NCBI RefSeq assembly: GCF_000294655.1
Contig: NZ_CAHP01000022.1
Coordinates: 30,729 to 65,987, forward strand
Direction: 5' to 3'
Length of the DNA: 35,259 nucleotides
Origin: Magnetospirillum molischianum DSM 120
GTDB taxonomy: Bacteria > Pseudomonadota > Alphaproteobacteria > Rhodospirillales > Magnetospirillaceae
Shown here in pieces: positions 7,948 to 35,259 of this stretch. A program made the translations under genes and the position numbers. The notes under the pieces are model-generated. The model searched no databases. It had not been told where the DNA came from and saw nothing but the letters and a program-made list of their open reading frames with translations. Every line of letters starts with the position of its first letter. The first letter of the stretch is position 1.

Positions 7948-8594
7948 GCGGACGTGTCGCCATCGTCGATTATGGGTCGGGCAATCTGCGCTCGGCTGCC
8001 AAGGCGTTCGAGAGGGTCGCGGCTGAACGCGGTCAGGGGCAGCAGATTCTCGTCACGTCGCGGGCCGAAGATATCGCCACCGCCGAGCGGATCGTTCTGC
8101 CCGGTGTCGGTGCTTTTGCCGATTGCAAGGCTGGTCTCGACCGGCTGCCCGGCATGGTCGATGCTCTCGAAGACGCGGTTTTGCGTCGGGGCCGCCCATT
8201 TCTTGGCATCTGTGTCGGCATGCAATTACTTGCCACCACCGGGCGCGAGCATGGCGAACATCGCGGCTTGGGCTGGATCGCGGGCGAAGTGTTGCCGCTG
8301 GCGGTCGAGGATGCGGGGCTTAAGGTGCCGCATATGGGCTGGAATGAACTGGTCGCCGACTGTCCCGACCACCCGATCCTCGCCGGATTGCCTGCGGGGG
8401 CGCACGCTTATTTCGTCCACTCCTACCGTTTCGCCTGTGCCGATTCCACCCATCGCCTGGCTCATGTCGAATATGGTGGATCGGTTACCGCGCTGATCGG
8501 TCGCGATTCGATCGTCGGCACCCAGTTCCACCCGGAAAAATCACAGGAAACCGGGTTGCGGGTAATCGAGAATTTCCTGACCTGGAGGCCGTGA
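7944..8594 (+). CDS. hisH: Imidazole glycerol phosphate synthase, glutamine amidotransferase subunit
   Basis: The 216-residue class I glutaminase supplies ammonia to HisF. The nucleophile Cys90 lies in GICVGMQLL, and His196 and Glu198 lie in FHPEKSQ, so the triad is complete. The N-terminus [11 protein letters not shown] is typical. The GTG start at 7944 overlaps the hisB stop by four bases (GTGA), implying translational coupling. The family is very well conserved and there is little doubt about the call. Confidence 0.97.
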
Positions 8595-8597
8595 GCG

Positions 8598-9329
8598 ATG
8601 TTTTTTTTTCCCGCCATCGACCTCAAGGACGGTGCTTGCGTCCGGCTGAAACTCGGCCTGATGGAAGAAGCGACGGTGTTCAATACCGATCCCGCCGCCC
8701 AAGCCGCCGCGTTCGCCGCCGCCGGGGCCGAGTGGATTCACGTCGTCGATCTTAACGGCGCGTTCGCGGGCAAGCCGGTCAACGCCGCCGCCGTCGAGTC
8801 GATTCTGAACGCCGTTTCGGTTCCGGTTCAGCTTGGCGGTGGTATCCGCGATCTCGCCACGATTGAATCGTGGCTGGACCGTGGCGTGCGCCGGGTCATC
8901 CTCGGCACCGTCGCCTTGAAAGATCCCGAACTGGTCAAGGACGCTTGTCGGCGCTTTCCCGGTCGGGTCGCTGTCGGCATCGACGCCAAGGGCGGCAAGG
9001 TCGCGGTCGAAGGCTGGGCCGAGACCGCCGATATCACCGTGCTCGATCTCGCCCGCAAGTTCGAGGACGCCGGGGTCGCCGCGCTGATTTATACCGATAT
9101 CGACCGCGACGGCGTGTTGGCCGGTCCAAATGTCGCCGCCACGGCGGCTCTGGCTGCCGCGATCCGTATTCCGGTAATCGCTTCGGGTGGGGTGTCGTCG
9201 CTGGACGATCTGCGTGCGTTGAAAACCGTTCCGGGTCTGGAAGGGGTTATTTCCGGCCGCGCTCTGTATGACGGACGTATCGATCTGGCTGCCGCCATCG
9301 CTCTGCTGAAAGGCTGCGGCTCATGCTGA
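8598..9329 (+). CDS. hisA: ProFAR isomerase (phosphoribosylformimino-5-aminoimidazole carboxamide ribotide isomerase)
   Basis: A 243-residue TIM-barrel isomerase catalysing the Amadori rearrangement of ProFAR to PRFAR. The N-terminal PAIDLKDG with its catalytic Asp, LGGGIR in the first half, and IYTDIDRDG and IASGGV in the second half are all visible. ATG 8598 is three bases after the hisH stop; GGAGG is about ten bases upstream, inside the end of hisH. The start codon is followed by nine consecutive T, encoding three Phe. That run makes this gene prone to slippage or sequencing error just after initiation. The stop overlaps hisF. Confidence 0.97.
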
Positions 9330-10081
9330 AGATGCGGATCATCCCTTGTCTCGACGTCAAGGACGGTCGTGTCGTCAAGGGAGTCAATTTCGTCGATCTG
9401 GTCGATGCTGGCGATCCGGTCGAGCAAGCGCGAATCTATGACCGCGCCGGGGCCGACGAACTGACCTTCCTCGACATCACCGCCAGTGTCGATAATCGCG
9501 ACACCATCTATGATGTCGTCCGCCGCACCGCCGAGCAATGCTTCATGCCGTTGACCGTTGGCGGCGGGGTACGCACCAACGACGATATCCGAAAGCTGTT
9601 GCTGGCTGGAGCCGACAAGGTTTCGATCAATACCGCCGCCGTCCATCGTCCTGATTTCGTTCGCGAGGCGGCGGAGAAGTTCGGTAGCCAGTGCATCGTC
9701 GTTGCCCTTGACGCCAAGCAGGTCGCTCCCGGCAAGTTCGAGATCTTCACCCATGGCGGCCGGACCCCGACCGGGATCGACGCCGTGGGCTGGGCGCGGC
9801 GGATGGTCGAGAACGGCGCGGGCGAGATATTGCTGACCTCAATGGATCGCGACGGCACCCGCCAGGGCTTTGACATCGCGCTGACCCGCGCCATTGCCGA
9901 TGCGGTGACGGTGCCTGTGATCGCTTCGGGCGGGGTCGGCACCCTGGACCATCTGGTCGAAGGCATCCGCGACGGCCACGCCACCGCCGTTCTGGCGGCT
10001 TCGATCTTTCATTTCGGGATGTTTTCGATCGCCGAAGCGAAAGCTCATCTGGCAGCTGCCGGTATTCCGGTACGACCTTAA
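9323..10081 (+). CDS. hisF: Imidazole glycerol phosphate synthase, cyclase subunit
   Basis: The 252-residue TIM-barrel cyclase uses ammonia from HisH to convert PRFAR to imidazole glycerol phosphate and AICAR. The catalytic aspartates are in [15 protein letters not shown] and in VVALDAK, and the phosphate loops VGGGVRT and IASGGVG are present. ATG 9323 overlaps hisA by seven bases; ATG 9332, three codons later, would begin directly at MRIIPCLD and is an alternative. The paralogy with hisA next door is the usual arrangement. A 97-base gap separates it from hisE. Confidence 0.97.
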
Positions 10082-10107
10082 CCCATCGGTCATATGTACA
10101 AGGATGA

Positions 10108-10155
10108 CAGTCTAGACTGCATCTGCTACCAACTTAGGCAGTGGCACCCGGTGCC
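10108..10155 (+). repeat. Two short palindromes in the hisF-hisE gap
   Basis: CAGTCTAGACTG at 10108-10119 is a perfect 12-base palindrome. GGCAC/GTGCC at 10143-10147 and 10151-10155 closes over CCG. Neither is followed by a T run. They may be RNA-processing or weak attenuation structures inside the his operon. The rest of the gap holds nothing I recognise. Confidence 0.4.
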
Positions 10156-10178
10156 CAATTCAATCAGGGGGCGAAATC

Positions 10179-10511
10179 ATGGCCCAAGACGTCGAAATTC
10201 TGAACGAACTGTACAAGGTTATTCTCAGCCGTCGCGGCACCGATCCCGATAAGTCCTATACCGCCAAGCTGTTTTCGCGCGGTCGGGGCAAGATCGCCCA
10301 GAAGTTCGGCGAGGAATCGGTCGAGACCATCGTTGCCGCCTTGTCCGAAGGCCGCGACGAGCTTGCCGCCGAAAGTGCGGATATGCTGTATCATCTGCTG
10401 GTGCTGTGGGCCGATTGCGGTCTGGAGCCGGGTAAGGTGTGGGCCGAGCTGGAACGTCGCTTGGGCACCTCGGGTATTGACGAGAAGAAGTCCCGCGCCA
10501 AGAAAAGCTGA
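10179..10511 (+). CDS. hisE: Phosphoribosyl-ATP pyrophosphatase
   Basis: A 110-residue MazG-like alpha-helical hydrolase removing pyrophosphate from PR-ATP, step two of histidine synthesis. The metal-binding helices are recognisable in KIAQKFGEESVETIVAA and in ELAAESADMLYHLLVLW. It is a stand-alone HisE, not fused to HisI, as usual in alphaproteobacteria. GGGGG precedes the ATG at 10179. It lies 97 bases behind hisF and 32 bases before the HIT gene. The C-terminus ends in a lysine-rich tail. Confidence 0.96.
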   Translation: MAQDVEILNELYKVILSRRGTDPDKSYTAKLFSRGRGKIAQKFGEESVETIVAALSEGRDELAAESADMLYHLLVLWADCGLEPGKVWAELERRLGTSGIDEKKSRAKKS

Positions 10512-10543
10512 CGACGGGGCATGCGCACAGAGGGGGAAAGCCG

Positions 10544-10912
10544 GTGATGGTGTATGACGACAACAACGTCTTCGCCCGCATCCTGCGGGGCGAGATTCCC
10601 TGCCGTAAGGTCTATGAGGACGAGCACACGCTTGCCTTTCACGACATCAACCCCCAGGCACCGATCCATATTCTGGTGATCCCCAAAGGTGCCTATGTCT
10701 CGATGATCGACTTCACCGAGCGCGCTTCGGATGTCGAGATCGCCGCCCTGTTCCGCAGTGTCACCAAGGTCGCCGAGATCGCCGGAGTTTCGGCCGAGGG
10801 CTGGCGTTTGCTGTCCAATATCGGGATCAATGGCGGGCAGGAAGTGCCCCACCTGCATATCCATATTTTCGGCGGTCGCAAACTGGGGCCGATGATCGCC
10901 AAGTCGGCCTAA
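10544..10912 (+). CDS. HIT-family nucleotide hydrolase (HinT-like)
   Basis: A 122-residue histidine-triad protein. The motif HLHIHIFGG places the triad histidines at about 103, 105 and 107. The N-terminus NNVFARILRGEIPCRKVYED and the middle APIHILVIPK are typical of the HinT/PKCI branch, which hydrolyses purine nucleoside phosphoramidates such as aminoacyl-AMP. The start may be GTG 10544 or ATG 10547; a GAGGGGG lies upstream at either spacing. The position immediately after hisE is a common alphaproteobacterial arrangement. Confidence 0.93.
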   Translation: MMVYDDNNVFARILRGEIPCRKVYEDEHTLAFHDINPQAPIHILVIPKGAYVSMIDFTERASDVEIAALFRSVTKVAEIAGVSAEGWRLLSNIGINGGQEVPHLHIHIFGGRKLGPMIAKSA

Positions 10913-10943
10913 GCCCCAGTCCGCCAACACCCGGTCAAATACG

Positions 10944-10970
10944 GGGAGGGTCCGAGAGTCGGAGCCTCCC
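10944..10970. terminator. Hairpin between the convergent HIT gene and phoU
   Basis: GGGAGG(10944-10949)-GT-CCGA-GAG-TCGG-AG-CCTCCC(10965-10970) forms a 10-pair interrupted stem. It lies exactly between the two stops. There is no T run on either side, so as an intrinsic terminator it is atypical. Confidence 0.5.
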
Positions 10971-11699
10971 TCAGATCGTGTCGTGGCCGGGCAGGCCACC
11001 AAGGCTGGCGGCGGTGTCGCACTTGATCCGCTCTTCGGGAAGAGATTTTCCGGTAATACGGAAGTGGGTCATCTCGGCGATGTTGGTCGCGTGATCGCCG
11101 ATCCGTTCCAGATTCTTGGCGATGAACAGAAGATGGCTGCACGGGGTGATCGTGCGCGGATCTTCCATCATGTAGGTAAGAATTTCGCGGAACAGGGCGG
11201 AGTGGATTTCGTCCAGTTCCTGATCGCGGTCGCGCACCACCAGCGCCCGTTCCGAATCGCCGCCGAGATAGGCGTCGAGCACATCCTTCACCATCGCCAA
11301 CGACAGTCGCCCCAGTCGGCTGACCGAGCGGGTCTGAGCCACTGGTGGCAGCTGGTTCAGAACCAGCGAGCGTTTGGCGACATTGGCGGCGAGGTCACCG
11401 ACCCGTTCGATTTCTCCGGCGATTTTCAGTGCCGTGACAACGGTGCGCAGATCGTCGGCGACCGGCGCGCGGAGCGCCAGCACCTTGATCGCCTGCTCGT
11501 TGATGAAAGCGTCAAGGCTGTCGATACGAGCGTCGCCGCCAACCACCTCTGCGGCCTGCTCGCCGTCGCGGTTTTCCAGCGCTTCAATCGCGGCGGCAAG
11601 CTGGGCTTCGGCCAGACCGCCCATGCGGGCCAGGGCGTCTCCAAGCTTGCCGAGTTCGATGTCGTAGGATTTGACGATGTGTTGCTCGCCGATGCTCAT
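10971..11699 (-). CDS. phoU: Phosphate-specific transport regulator PhoU
   Basis: A 242-residue all-helical protein with two PhoU repeats. Each carries the metal-binding helix pattern: EIERVGDLAANVAKRS in the first and NLERIGDHATNIAEMTHF in the second. PhoU links the Pst transporter to the PhoR sensor and damps phosphate uptake and the Pho response when phosphate is plentiful. ATG 11699 lies 12 bases after the pstB stop, so the two form an operon. No phoB or phoR is visible in the window. Confidence 0.96.
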   Translation of the reverse strand: MSIGEQHIVKSYDIELGKLGDALARMGGLAEAQLAAAIEALENRDGEQAAEVVGGDARIDSLDAFINEQAIKVLALRAPVADDLRTVVTALKIAGEIERVGDLAANVAKRSLVLNQLPPVAQTRSVSRLGRLSLAMVKDVLDAYLGGDSERALVVRDRDQELDEIHSALFREILTYMMEDPRTITPCSHLLFIAKNLERIGDHATNIAEMTHFRITGKSLPEERIKCDTAASLGGLPGHDTI

Positions 11700-32159: not shown

Positions 32160-34259
32160 TCAGCGCCGCTCCGCGCGTAGCTTCCGGGTTCGCAGCGCGT
32201 TAAGCAGAATGCCGAGCGTGGTGCCGTTATGCAGGATCGCAGTCGAAATCGGTGACAGCATCCCCAGCGCCGCCGCCGACAGGATGCCGGTGTTCAGGCC
32301 GACGGTCAGGCGGTAATTGGTGGCGATCAGGTCCATTGCAGCTTTGGCGGCGGCCTTGGCATCGGCAACGCACTCGATATCGTCCTCCAGCAAGGCGACG
32401 TCGGCGGTCAGGCGGGCGATATCGGCCCCCTTCATCATTGCGATGCCGACATGAGCCCCGGCCAGGGCGGGGGCGTCGTTGATTCCGTCGCCAACAAACG
32501 CGATCCGCGCCCCCTGAGCGGCGAGCGAGTCGATGATGCGAGCCTTGTCCTCGGGCATCAATTCTGAATGGCACTCGTCCAGGCCCAGTTCGTCGGCCAG
32601 TTCGGTGGCACGGTCACGATGATCGCCGGTCAGCAGCAGGATGCGGCGGACTCCCAGGGCGCGCAGGCGGCGCAAGGTCGCGACGGTGGTGGGGCGCACC
32701 GAATCCTTCAACCCGATCACGCCCAGCAGCCGTCCGCCAAAGCCGATGAACAGTAGGGTTTTGCCGTCACGGTATAGTTGGTCGATGATCTCGGTCTGCG
32801 GGGTGATGTCGATGCCTTCGTCTTCCTGGACGAAATGGCGAGAGCCGACGACGATTCGCTTGCCGTCGATCACGCTGGCAACGCCATGGGCAACGATAAA
32901 CTGAACTTCCTGGTGATCGAAATGGCGATGATTCTCGGTGGCGCGGGCGGCGGTGACCACCGCCATCGCCAGCGGGTGGAAGTAATGTTCCTCGACCGAG
33001 GCGGCGAGGCAGATCAGATCGTCGGGGGTAAAGGTCGGGTCGAAGGCGATGGCGTCGGTCACCTGCAACAGGCCGGTGGTCAAGGTGCCGGTCTTGTCGA
33101 AGACAAAGGTATCGGCCTGGGCCAGTCGCTCCAGCGCACTGGCTCCCTTGACCAGGATGCCCGCCCGTGCCGCGCCGTACATCGCCGATTTGAACGCGAC
33201 CGGGGTGGCCAGCTTCAGGGCACAGGAATAGTCGGCTTGAAGCACGGAGGCGGCGCGCCGCCAGTCGCCGGACACCACGAAAGCGGCTCCGGCCAGTTTC
33301 AGCACCAGCGGGACCAGCCGGTCGGCCAGTCGCGACGCTTCCAACTGCGCTTCACTTTTGACCACCAGCGACTGCTCGACATAATCGGCAATGCGGGCGG
33401 CGGCGGTGCGGCGGCCGACCTGTTCGGCATAGATCGAGAGCCGTCCTTCTTCGACCAGGGTTCCAGACAAGACCAGAGAGCCGCGGCTTTTTTCGACCGA
33501 GACGCTTTCGCCCGTCATTGCTGCTTCGTTGACGGTAGCCTCTCCCGACAGCACCGTGCCATCGATCGGGATCACCGTGCCGGTGCCAACGACCACCGTA
33601 TCGCCGACGACGACTTCGGCGGCGGGGATCAACACCTCTTCGCCGTCCCGCATCACCCAGATTTCGTCGCTGGACGGGCGCAGCAGATGCTTCAGCAGAT
33701 CGTCGGAGCGGCGGGCGACCGAATGTTCGAGATGCTCGCCCAGCGCCAGCATGAACGTCGTGGTGTTGGCGGCGGTGTAGTCGGCCCGCGCCAGCGAGAT
33801 CGAGACCGCCATCGCTTCCAGGCCGTGCGAGGTCACCCCGTTCTCGGCGTAATCCTCGGCCCCGTGCCGCAGCAGCGGCAGGGCGGCGGCCAGTGCCACC
33901 GGCAGCCGCAATGGCGCGGGGAGCAGCGGCGTCATCAGCAAGGTCATCAGACTGGACCCCAGCCCGGAAGACGTCTTTGGCGCGGCGGCGGGAGCCGTTT
34001 CCGGCTGGACCGTTGGCAGCAAGGCGGCGACCGAGGCGCGTAACGCCTCGGCTCCGGTCTCGGCCGGGTCATAGGAAAGGATCAGCGAACGCGCAGCCGG
34101 ATTGATCCGTGCGGCGGTAACACCGTCCAGCTCGGAGACGGCCCGCACCAGCGGGGCGGTGGCGATCGGTCTGCCGTGCGACCGATAGCGCAGCCGAACC
34201 CGTCCCGGAACGCGGTGGACTACCTCCACCGCGTCAATCCAGCCGGCGTCCGGGATCAT
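32160..34259 (-). CDS. P1B-type metal ATPase with SCA motif (P1B-6/FezB-like)
   Basis: A 699-residue P-type ATPase. The N-terminal 80 residues look like a heavy-metal-associated fold (VHRVPGRVRLRY) but lack CxxC. Catalytic motifs are intact: TGES 249-252, DKTGT 388-392 with phosphorylated Asp388, HP 428-429 (P1B hallmark), TGD 544-546 and GDGIND 590-595. The metal-helix motif, CPC in copper and zinc pumps, is SCA (345-347) in DYSCALKLATP, followed by Pro353. I associate SCA with subgroup P1B-6, which includes FezB of ferrosomes. NY (648-649) and HNGTT (678 on) lie in the last helices. ATG overlaps the preceding small gene by four bases. Iron is the likely ion, by analogy. Confidence 0.85.
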   Translation of the reverse strand: MIPDAGWIDAVEVVHRVPGRVRLRYRSHGRPIATAPLVRAVSELDGVTAARINPAARSLILSYDPAETGAEALRASVAALLPTVQPETAPAAAPKTSSGLGSSLMTLLMTPLLPAPLRLPVALAAALPLLRHGAEDYAENGVTSHGLEAMAVSISLARADYTAANTTTFMLALGEHLEHSVARRSDDLLKHLLRPSSDEIWVMRDGEEVLIPAAEVVVGDTVVVGTGTVIPIDGTVLSGEATVNEAAMTGESVSVEKSRGSLVLSGTLVEEGRLSIYAEQVGRRTAAARIADYVEQSLVVKSEAQLEASRLADRLVPLVLKLAGAAFVVSGDWRRAASVLQADYSCALKLATPVAFKSAMYGAARAGILVKGASALERLAQADTFVFDKTGTLTTGLLQVTDAIAFDPTFTPDDLICLAASVEEHYFHPLAMAVVTAARATENHRHFDHQEVQFIVAHGVASVIDGKRIVVGSRHFVQEDEGIDITPQTEIIDQLYRDGKTLLFIGFGGRLLGVIGLKDSVRPTTVATLRRLRALGVRRILLLTGDHRDRATELADELGLDECHSELMPEDKARIIDSLAAQGARIAFVGDGINDAPALAGAHVGIAMMKGADIARLTADVALLEDDIECVADAKAAAKAAMDLIATNYRLTVGLNTGILSAAALGMLSPISTAILHNGTTLGILLNALRTRKLRAERR

Positions 34260-34576
34260 GCAGCGCCGCTTTGTTCGGCCTGAAGCTCGGCCTGAATGTC
34301 GGCGACCTGCTCCTTCACTTCTTCAAGTCCGCCGACCAGCCCGGAATAGAGCTTGACCCCCGAGCGGATCAGCTTGCCGCGCAGTTCCTCGTCGCTGAGG
34401 ACATAGGCGGCGGCAGCGCCGATTGCCGCGCCGAGCAGGAACTGTTCAGTCCGTCCCGCAGGCAGCATCCGGCCCAGACCGGCGAACAGGCCACCCGTCC
34501 CGGCCTGGGGATTCCCCACCGGAAGACCGCGTTTGCCGTATTTGTTTTTCTTAGATTTCTTCTTTTTCTTGGCCAA
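34256..34576 (-). CDS. Small membrane protein with lysine-rich N-terminus, coupled to the ATPase
   Basis: From TTG 34576 (GAGGAG about seven bases upstream) the product has 106 residues. An ATG at 34609 would add eleven. It begins AKKKKKSKKNKYGKRG, a strongly basic stretch. Next is a Gly/Pro-rich linker, then a short Ala/Gly hydrophobic segment (FLLGAAIGAAAAYVL, near 45-60 from TTG). A helical C-terminus with VGGLEEVKEQVADIQAELQAEQ follows and looks like a coiled coil. The layout recalls YtxH-like proteins. Its stop overlaps the ATPase start (ATGA). The basic head could bind phosphate-rich or anionic material; this is inference. No known family was recognised. Confidence 0.8.
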   Translation of the reverse strand: MAKKKKKSKKNKYGKRGLPVGNPQAGTGGLFAGLGRMLPAGRTEQFLLGAAIGAAAAYVLSDEELRGKLIRSGVKLYSGLVGGLEEVKEQVADIQAELQAEQSGAA

Positions 34577-34904
34577 AGCCAGTCTCCTCGTTCCGTTCGG
34601 ATGATCCATGAGTCAGCAGGTATTCCGCCGCCAGTACGCCGCCCGCGCCCAGCGCCGCCGCCGTCAGGACAGTCGGGTAATCGCGCTGTCGCAACGCTTC
34701 GGCCACCATTGTCGCGGCGGACAAGGCCGCGCCGCCCTGAAGAGCGTGGCGCAGGATCTTGCGGCCACTCGGGGCGGGCGAAACCGGCTCCAGCCGGTCT
34801 TGAAACATGCTGAGAAGGCCGGTGGTGACGAAGCCGCGTGCAAAGGCCGTCGCCGCTTCGGTTCCGGCCTTACGTTTCGCGGCTTTGCCTTTGCCCCGCT
34901 TCAT
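34551..34904 (-). CDS. Small glycine/alanine-rich membrane protein of the ATPase operon
   Basis: A 117-residue protein with basic N-terminus (KRGKGKAAKRKAG). It has two hydrophobic, Gly/Ala-rich stretches near 53-68 and 77-97 (AALGAGGVLAAEYLL) and an acidic end. The Gly spacing suggests close helix packing in a membrane. ATG 34904 overlaps the preceding stop by four bases, and its own 3' end overlaps the following gene by 26 bases or more, so translation is coupled. I recognise no family. Context ties it to the P1B ATPase and the other two small membrane proteins. Confidence 0.82.
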   Translation of the reverse strand: MKRGKGKAAKRKAGTEAATAFARGFVTTGLLSMFQDRLEPVSPAPSGRKILRHALQGGAALSAATMVAEALRQRDYPTVLTAAALGAGGVLAAEYLLTHGSSERNEETGFGQEKEEI

Positions 34905-35167
34905 GGCGTGTTCCCGGCCTCGGGCGGCTCGGTGGGAGCCGGAGCGGCGGGGGTCAGCTTGCCGCGCAGGCTGGCAGATGATTTCTCGATCGCGGTCAGG
35001 CCGGAAACGGTGGCGTCGCGCAGGCCGCTCTTGGCCTGATCCAGGCCATGGCGGGTCTTGCCGCTAAGAGACTCCAGGGCGTCCTTACCCTTGCCGCTAT
35101 TTTTCAAGGCGCGGACGCCGACAATTCCAGTCACCAGTCCGGTGGCGAAGAGCAAAACAGGATGCAT
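34901..35167 (-). CDS. Small single-helix membrane protein of the ATPase operon
   Basis: An 88-residue protein with one N-terminal hydrophobic helix (HPVLLFATGLVTGIVGVRAL) containing a GxxxG-type spacing. A basic and amphipathic middle (KSGLRDATVSGLTAIEKSSASLRGK) and a Pro/Ala-rich tail follow. ATG 35167 has AAAGGA about nine bases upstream. It could anchor in, or shape, a membrane; I know no family for it with certainty. It is the first complete gene of the four-gene unit, and the operon may begin further right with the partial frame at 35194. Confidence 0.8.
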   Translation of the reverse strand: MHPVLLFATGLVTGIVGVRALKNSGKGKDALESLSGKTRHGLDQAKSGLRDATVSGLTAIEKSSASLRGKLTPAAPAPTEPPEAGNTP

Positions 35168-35193
35168 GTCCGTGGGATCCTTTCGGGCCAGGG

Positions 35194-35259
35194 TTAAGCG
35201 GGATGACGGTCGGTTCCGACCAATCGGTGCGTCAGAGCCAGGGCTTCGGCCGAGCGGGT
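35194..35259 (-). CDS. C-terminal end of a gene continuing off the right edge
   Basis: A minus-strand frame is open from the edge to TAA at 35196-35194, ending RSAEALALTHRLVGTDRHPA. It lies 26 bases before the first small membrane gene, consistent with an upstream operon member. Only 21 residues are visible, too few to name a family. It may be a chance open frame. Confidence 0.4.
   Translation of the reverse strand, partial: TRSAEALALTHRLVGTDRHPA

Follow-up and report, generated by a model that had tools for sequence, protein, structure and literature searches.

Does the gene cluster at the right end of a 35,259-nucleotide stretch of the Magnetospirillum molischianum DSM 120 genome (hereafter the window) encode a ferrosome, the iron organelle made by fez genes? 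An initial annotation, based on the letters of the window, had proposed here a fez-type locus or a relative of one. All genes of the locus lie on the minus strand and comprise a P-type ATPase gene, three small genes and a partial fourth gene, inside which the window stops; counting contig C34 of the same genome, the cluster consists of six genes, whose products were assigned in the order FezC-like, HMA_2, 88-residue, MamC-family, FezA-like and FezB-like. The source genome also encodes photosynthetic reaction-centre proteins. On sequence comparison we judge, with a probability of about 70%, that the six genes form a fez-type (ferrosome) cluster in a phototroph close to Magnetospirillum fulvum. 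The parts of the proposal that held up are the P1B-6-type pump, a FezA-like protein, a FezC-like HMA_2 protein and the occurrence of iron genes beside the homologues.

The pump gene (32160-34259, minus strand) encodes a protein of 699 residues that was assigned from Pfam, motifs and tree as a FezB-like P1B-6-type ATPase. The protein carries the motifs TGES, DKTGT and GDGIND, and Pfam detected E1-E2 ATPase and hydrolase domains together with an HMA_2 match at residues 9-82 that lay below its cut-off. This HMA_2-like N-terminal domain contains HRVPGRVRLR (residues 15-24) and, just as had been read by eye, lacks CxxC; the whole protein has four Cys residues and no CxxC. The pump was also correctly recognized as a non-CPC type, with the proposed replacement SCA being one column off. 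In transmembrane segment 4 (TM4), which reads DYSCALK (343), Y-S-C takes the columns of CPC in the alignment (DYSCALKLATP versus ACPCALGLATP in one of the genome's own CPC pumps). TM6 bears the dipeptide HN at 677-678, within LHNG. In the accessible text of PMC9374683, HN in TM6 counts among the features of P1B6 pumps, alongside which DUF6110 proteins are said to be typically encoded.

All 54 YSC-type and close pumps had HN near the C-terminus, versus none of eight CPC pumps, a count that covers 62 of the 67 tree rows (one identical pair included), the other five being of neither type and failing the narrower HN pattern. In the tree, 52 pumps, among them those of the window, Shewanella, Desulfovibrio and Clostridia, formed one clade with a support of 98, and all eight CPC pumps fell outside it. 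The tree was built by a quick method and has some long branches; its comparison pumps were these eight CPC pumps, three of them from the window's genome, with no P1B-4 or nickel/cobalt pump, so that grouping with copper, zinc or nickel pumps, the outcome that the initial annotation had named as contrary, is disfavored within the scope of CPC pumps. FezB, which we take, as the initial annotation did, to be a P1B-6 ATPase, would share with the window's pump its P1B-6 type, the lack of CPC and the HN in TM6. Pumps with other TM4 motifs were also encountered: L029 and L030 (DYGTGIR) and L031 and L200 (DYSCGVR) are non-CPC pumps outside the clade of 52, and L188, L192 and L198 (DFSCAVK, DFACSSK and DFSCATK) represent a second pump lineage in the window's order, 43-46% identical, in which F replaces Y in TM4.

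Immediately upstream of the pump gene lie three small genes on the minus strand, at 34256-34576 (106 residues from a TTG start at 34576; the longest open reading frame (ORF), starting at an ATG further upstream, has 117), 34551-34904 (117 residues) and 34901-35167 (88 residues). They had been described as encoding Gly/Ala-rich membrane proteins, in frames overlapping by at least four bases. The coordinates, the Gly plus Ala content of 25-30% and the overlaps (4 bases between the ATPase and 106-residue frames, 26 between the 106- and 117-residue frames, and 4 between the 117- and 88-residue frames) agreed with this description, and membrane character was borne out for two of the three. A hydropathy scan at a threshold of 1.6 found one hydrophobic segment each in the 117- and 88-residue proteins; since it found none in the 106-residue protein, the latter is called a membrane protein because of its family likeness.

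To follow the pump's partners, profiles were built from the genus and iterated across 5,335 ORFs of 88 loci and the window's right end. In 80 named loci, the best 80 of at least 587 relatives from a scan of named genomes, matches at an expectation value (E) of 1e-3 or below were obtained for the family of the 106-residue protein in 76, for that of the 117-residue protein in 47, for small HMA_2 proteins in 55 and for ferritin-like proteins in 21. The 88-residue protein, with its one hydrophobic helix, was assigned by iterated profile to the broad type of the 106-residue protein, and a member of this type stood directly upstream of the pump, ending within 250 bases of the pump start or overlapping it, in 71 of the 80. 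Iterated profiles of short Ala-rich helices can drift; the constant place beside the pump speaks against such drift for the 106-residue family.

The protein at the pump-adjacent place matched DUF6110 at E 2.3e-35 in a Clostridia locus and barely over the cut-off in a Desulfovibrionaceae locus, and the window's 106-residue protein was tied to this DUF6110-containing family through the iterated hidden Markov model. It has a Lys-rich N-terminus, a GxxxG stretch and an ExxxDxxAE motif; in an alignment of 24 chosen family members, DUF6110 proteins included, G49, G53, E89, D93 and A96 were invariant. When 24 members of the family were compared with NCBIfam, none of its families was matched by more than two. 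The available part of PMC12574912 describes the membrane protein FezA and the transporter FezB as both needed for ferrosomes in C. difficile. We infer that FezA is a DUF6110 protein, and the place beside the pump and the shared signature lean toward the 106-residue protein being FezA-like. A match of the small proteins to an unrelated family, which the initial annotation would have counted against itself, was not the outcome for the 106-residue family, and the 117-residue family led to a protein that it had not foreseen, the magnetosome protein MamC.

The AlphaFold model of the window's 117-residue helical protein consists of three helices, with a predicted local distance difference test score (pLDDT) of 74.6. 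When the first ten members of its family were compared with NCBIfam, six matched MamC (NF038051) at E ≤ 2.7e-5 (best 5.6e-15), two were weak (0.14 and 0.33) and two, of which one was the window's copy, gave no match. All 15 relatives chosen outside the window's branch, the first six included, matched MamC at E ≤ 0.1; throughout the family, which comprises 49 ORFs shorter than 205 residues, 27 did so at E ≤ 0.1 and 20 at E ≤ 1e-4, where MamC was the sole family matched. The best member scored 55.4 bits, below the NF038051 cut-off of 100 bits. MamC itself was present over the cut-off in 16 of 40 relatives, the source genome (G000) not being among them, and the proteins of 14 of these 16 genomes were aligned for profile comparison.

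In this comparison, MamC and the 15 relatives matched with a probability of 98.9% (P 1.8e-17, 88 of 97 columns), and the window's branch matched the same 15 relatives with 96.7% (P 3.8e-10). MamC against the window's branch directly gave 3.4%, which was not significant, and against the branch combined with the 15 relatives 98.1%. Reversed alignments used as controls reached 6.2% and 3.7%, and the top of 100 column shuffles 4.1% and 5.3%. A relationship of the 106-residue family to MamC was considered as well and was not supported (1.4-4.3%). The 15 MamC-like relatives matched the 106-residue family with 35.4% over 33 columns (P 3.9e-4), which was not counted as a relationship; some general helix likeness is therefore present. 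On these profiles, the 117-residue family is related to MamC and is not MamC itself, and the window's protein is a member by profile and place, linked to MamC only through other members. The cluster and MamC over the cut-off occurred together in three of eight cluster-bearing genomes, namely G006, G009 (matching Paramagnetospirillum caucaseum SO-1) and G017.

What is new and unexpected here is the kinship between a magnetosome protein and a family that such clusters regularly contain. A relation between MamC and ferrosome clusters was stated nowhere in the literature reached by our search, which included the accessible text of PMC12713370 and to which the two main ferrosome papers were out of reach. 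At somewhat less than even odds, we tentatively propose that fez-type clusters regularly encode a MamC homologue, that ferrosomes and magnetosomes share a membrane protein family, and that magnetosomes recruited MamC from ferrosome-type clusters or that both organelles descended from a single earlier iron vesicle.

The sequence to the right of the window, to which the initial annotation had pointed as a check, proved informative. Contig C34 begins with 399 bases that are the last 399 of the window (window 34861-35259, C34 1-399) and then carries two HMA_2 genes, one of them FezC-like. The other encodes an HMA_2 protein of 121 residues containing HHIPGRIRLKL, the C-terminal end of which lies at 35194-35259 of the window (minus strand) and which continues on C34 (L018 334-699, minus strand); the FezC-like gene lies off the window, upstream of it (L018 703-1164, minus strand; 153 residues from the likely start). 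On its own contig, C22, the window occupies 30729-65987 and is followed by undetermined bases and then by a DsrE/ThiF neighborhood. These genes were rejected as part of the locus, since C34 shares 399 bases with the window and its genes are ordered as in M. fulvum; the join on C22 is probably a wrong join or scaffold error, with C34 carrying the likely true continuation.

The FezC-like protein scored over the HMA_2 cut-off and continues into two C-terminal helices. Its AlphaFold model showed HMA-like strands and helices followed by helices 91-123 and 126-152, with a mean pLDDT of 85; a Foldseek search with this model returned nothing at E ≤ 0.001, the best matches being copper HMA domains at E 0.01-0.1. 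His129 and His143 (HX13H) were invariant in 25 relatives, 23 of which had been chosen by the His pattern, hence the invariance is not independent. When no such choice was made, 68 HMA_2 ORFs ending in a hydrophobic tail were counted, a set that contains genus loci repeating named ones; the His pair was present in 39 of them (33 at a spacing of 14). A separation of 13 residues between two His is a usual spacing in b-type cytochromes. Ferrosome FezC is described in the available part of PMC10979944 as a DUF4405-like heme cytochrome, the heme sites of which are formed as a homodimer in a model. Weak DUF4405 matches were obtained for 13 of the 25 relatives (best E 0.0038). The domain order, the His pair and the predicted structure lean toward the first gene of the cluster being FezC-like. 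In Shewanella, Photobacterium and relatives (L075 4622-5392, L079 4445-5365, L080 4514-5380), a Met/Pro/His-rich protein of 220-300 residues with a C-terminal helix is encoded between the HMA_2 and MamC-like genes; it possibly binds metal, and the two copies scanned matched no Pfam family over the cut-off.

The cluster is also found in relatives of the source strain. The closest named match of the ATPase was that of M. fulvum DSM 13234 (89% identity, with records of the own genome possibly excluded), and that of G015 was 91% identical. At E ≤ 1e-100, the ATPase was present in eight of the 40 relatives searched, the own genome included; all eight had two HMA_2 ORFs, either nearby or at a broken contig end, and five kept the unbroken gene order on one contig (M. 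fulvum G005, G006, G009, G011 and G017). The gene arrangement is therefore not due to chance. In G015, the cluster is interrupted by contig ends, and in G013 it is split between two contigs, one of 3.4 kb with the pump and the 106-residue gene and a second with the HMA_2 genes, the intervening two genes not being seen. The pump of G009 is identical to that of P. caucaseum SO-1. An in-frame TAG in G006 and G009 was considered as a sign of decay and rejected, as the match coordinates extend to the normal stop codon.

On a wider scale, the pump was found class-wide in six of 387 genomes at E ≤ 1e-95 (own included; two of the six were of the DYGTG type in TM4 and one DYSCG), in 29 of 163 genomes of the window's order at E ≤ 1e-90 (27 at 43% identity or more), and in 19 of 82 genomes of the family of G334 at E ≤ 1e-90 (17 at 71-74% identity and 2 at 43%). 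In the genus of G360, pump matches reached 37% only, and the four typed in the tree were CPC pumps. The named relatives include Azospirillum, Thauera, Azotobacter, Campylobacterota, Kluyvera, Pragia, Shewanella, Photobacterium, Desulfovibrio and Clostridia. Twelve plasmid records carried the pump at E ≤ 1e-100, eight of which were Azospirillum replicons.

The genes beside these homologues bear on the cargo. Hypothesis-free clustering of neighboring ORFs returned FeoB, a Fur-family gene and a ferritin-like protein among the recurring families; the ABC transporter superfamily recurred more often, and several clusters were shadow ORFs. With profiles, 13 of the 80 named loci were found to hold full-length FeoB, 19 a FeoA-domain gene and 10 a Fur-family gene. 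These loci total 971,587 bases, in which less than one feoB would be expected at one or two per 4-Mb genome, a rate that is estimated rather than measured. Strong ferritin-like proteins were found in 16 loci (E ≤ 2e-51 with a model derived from these proteins; one on the opposite strand), the remaining matches being partial or of low complexity. The recurrence of FeoB, Fur-family and ferritin-like genes beside the homologues therefore makes iron the likely cargo. In the Thauera locus L040, the pump ends at 8124 and the FeoA match starts at 8121, followed by FeoB (8121-11066), and such overlapping pump and feo frames suggest a single operon for uptake and storage. FeoA matches and FeoB were also located 3' of the pump on the same strand in L042, L043, L058, L062 and L067 as in L040. 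Ferritin-like genes lie inside the pump cluster of Thauera, Azotobacter and Campylobacterota (L040 4006-4722, L046 4057-4731, L057 4297-4974 and others), just upstream of the 88-residue-like gene. In the P. caucaseum locus, a Fur-family gene (E 1.4e-14) is situated 98 bases upstream of the cluster on the same strand.

Upstream of the cluster, the palindrome TGCGAATGCGTTTGCA was found in the own genome 54 bases before the FezC-like gene, and TGCGAAGCATTCGCA in G011 51 bases before it. These were the sole two of their pattern in 153 kb, versus a mean of 0.1 in shuffled sequence, the pattern having been defined post hoc. The palindrome was missing in six of the eight upstream stretches scanned, with a half site at -55 in M. 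fulvum. We presume a resemblance to alphaproteobacterial Fur-family operators; a literature search on the palindrome found nothing. The upstream stretches gave no Fur, FNR/FixK or NtrC match, and one Irr-like site with four mismatches in P. caucaseum.

Based on these assignments, the following mechanism may be envisaged. When iron becomes available, cytoplasmic Fe(II) would be loaded into a membrane vesicle by the FezB-like pump. The HMA_2 domains, which bear the RxxGRxR motif, may serve in iron transfer to the pump or in the docking of partners; unlike copper domains, the pump's own domain has no CxxC. With HMA_2, two helices and His residues 14 apart, the FezC-like protein would probably form a heme-b homodimer and alter the redox state of iron in the store. 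The small Gly-rich or amphipathic proteins and the MamC-family protein may coat, shape or organize the vesicle membrane, and could possibly contact the mineral.

Several observations weigh against a fez-type cluster. The proven Fez proteins entered the comparison through their published descriptions. The window's 106-residue protein gave no match to DUF6110 (PF19605) or to any other Pfam family over the cut-off, and the pump-adjacent proteins of the Campylobacter and Shewanella loci likewise did not match DUF6110. The DUF4405 match of the FezC-like protein was weak (E 0.037). Among three ferritin-like proteins scanned, one scored over the DUF2202 cut-off (L057), one below it (L040) and one had no match. 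No feo, fur or ferritin-like gene appeared among the ORFs listed around the window's own cluster, such genes being seen only beside homologues, and no canonical 19-mer Fur box was found in ten upstream stretches. In the window's branch, none of 14 proteins (the 117-residue protein and 13 close relatives) matched MamC directly. Because of this last result, and because the adjacent partners number 71 rather than 76, less weight was placed on both the ferrosome and the MamC readings.

Among the alternatives, the genes could encode a platform for Fe(II) efflux seated in the cell membrane, with no organelle, in which iron is exported by the pump and the small proteins gather the pump into clusters, as PacL does with CtpC in mycobacteria. 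The accessible portions of PMC9374683 and PMC13043812 describe PacL and DUF6110 proteins as related and PacL as assembling membrane efflux platforms, and the small proteins here share the layout of a hydrophobic stretch plus a charged stretch. Plain export, however, has no obvious need for a FezC-like cytochrome, a MamC-family protein or the ferritin-like protein of the relatives, and the FeoAB uptake genes beside homologues suit storage more than export; we thus regard this arrangement as unlikely. A pump for zinc, manganese, cobalt or another divalent metal with accessory proteins would agree with the generic heavy-metal and cadmium-family NCBIfam models, which score the window's pump over their cut-offs, and the substrate is unreadable from sequence alone; it appears improbable in view of the same-genome CPC pumps lying outside the clade and of the FeoB, Fur-family and ferritin-like genes that recur beside homologues. 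That the cluster is a decayed or silent remnant is highly improbable, since the window shows uninterrupted, overlapping frames throughout and two congeners possess ATPases that are 88-92% identical to its own, even though loss does occur, as seen in the fragmented homologue of G331 in the same order.

The fez-type reading was further set against systems already described. In Rhodopseudomonas palustris CGA009, ferrosomes are produced by the six fez genes RPA2333-2338 (PMC12016538, in its available part). The cluster described here likewise has six genes in an alphaproteobacterial phototroph, the comparison being one of descriptions and the organelle here being predicted. Published descriptions of fez clusters elsewhere combine a P1B-type pump, FezB, with a DUF4405-like FezC, as may be the case in the window's cluster. 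The DUF6110/P1B6 pairs of Firmicutes resemble it in that the gene of a small protein immediately precedes that of a DYSCALK pump; in contrast, the flanks of the Firmicutes loci examined are without a MamC-family gene or separate HMA_2 gene, and the window's small protein misses PF19605. With the PacL/CtpC platform, the window's genes share a small helix and charged-stretch protein paired with a P1B pump that has HN in TM6. According to the accessible text of PMC9374683, CPC is present in CtpC, and PacL combines DUF1490 with a metal-binding tail, whereas the window has no DUF1490 match and YSC replaces CPC. The likeness to MamC (Mms13) runs via the 15 chosen family members, to which the window's branch is joined only through other members of the family, and the window's genome differs in having no MamC over the cut-off.

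These results place a probable ferrosome gene set in a bacterial group used for the study of magnetosomes. The link to MamC hints that ferrosome and magnetosome share parts, and would offer a handle on whether the two share parts or origin. The 117-residue protein is a candidate ferrosome marker, as MamC fused to green fluorescent protein (MamC-GFP) is for magnetosomes, and the unnamed small proteins gain testable roles, one as a putative HMA_2 cytochrome and another as a conserved partner of the pump.

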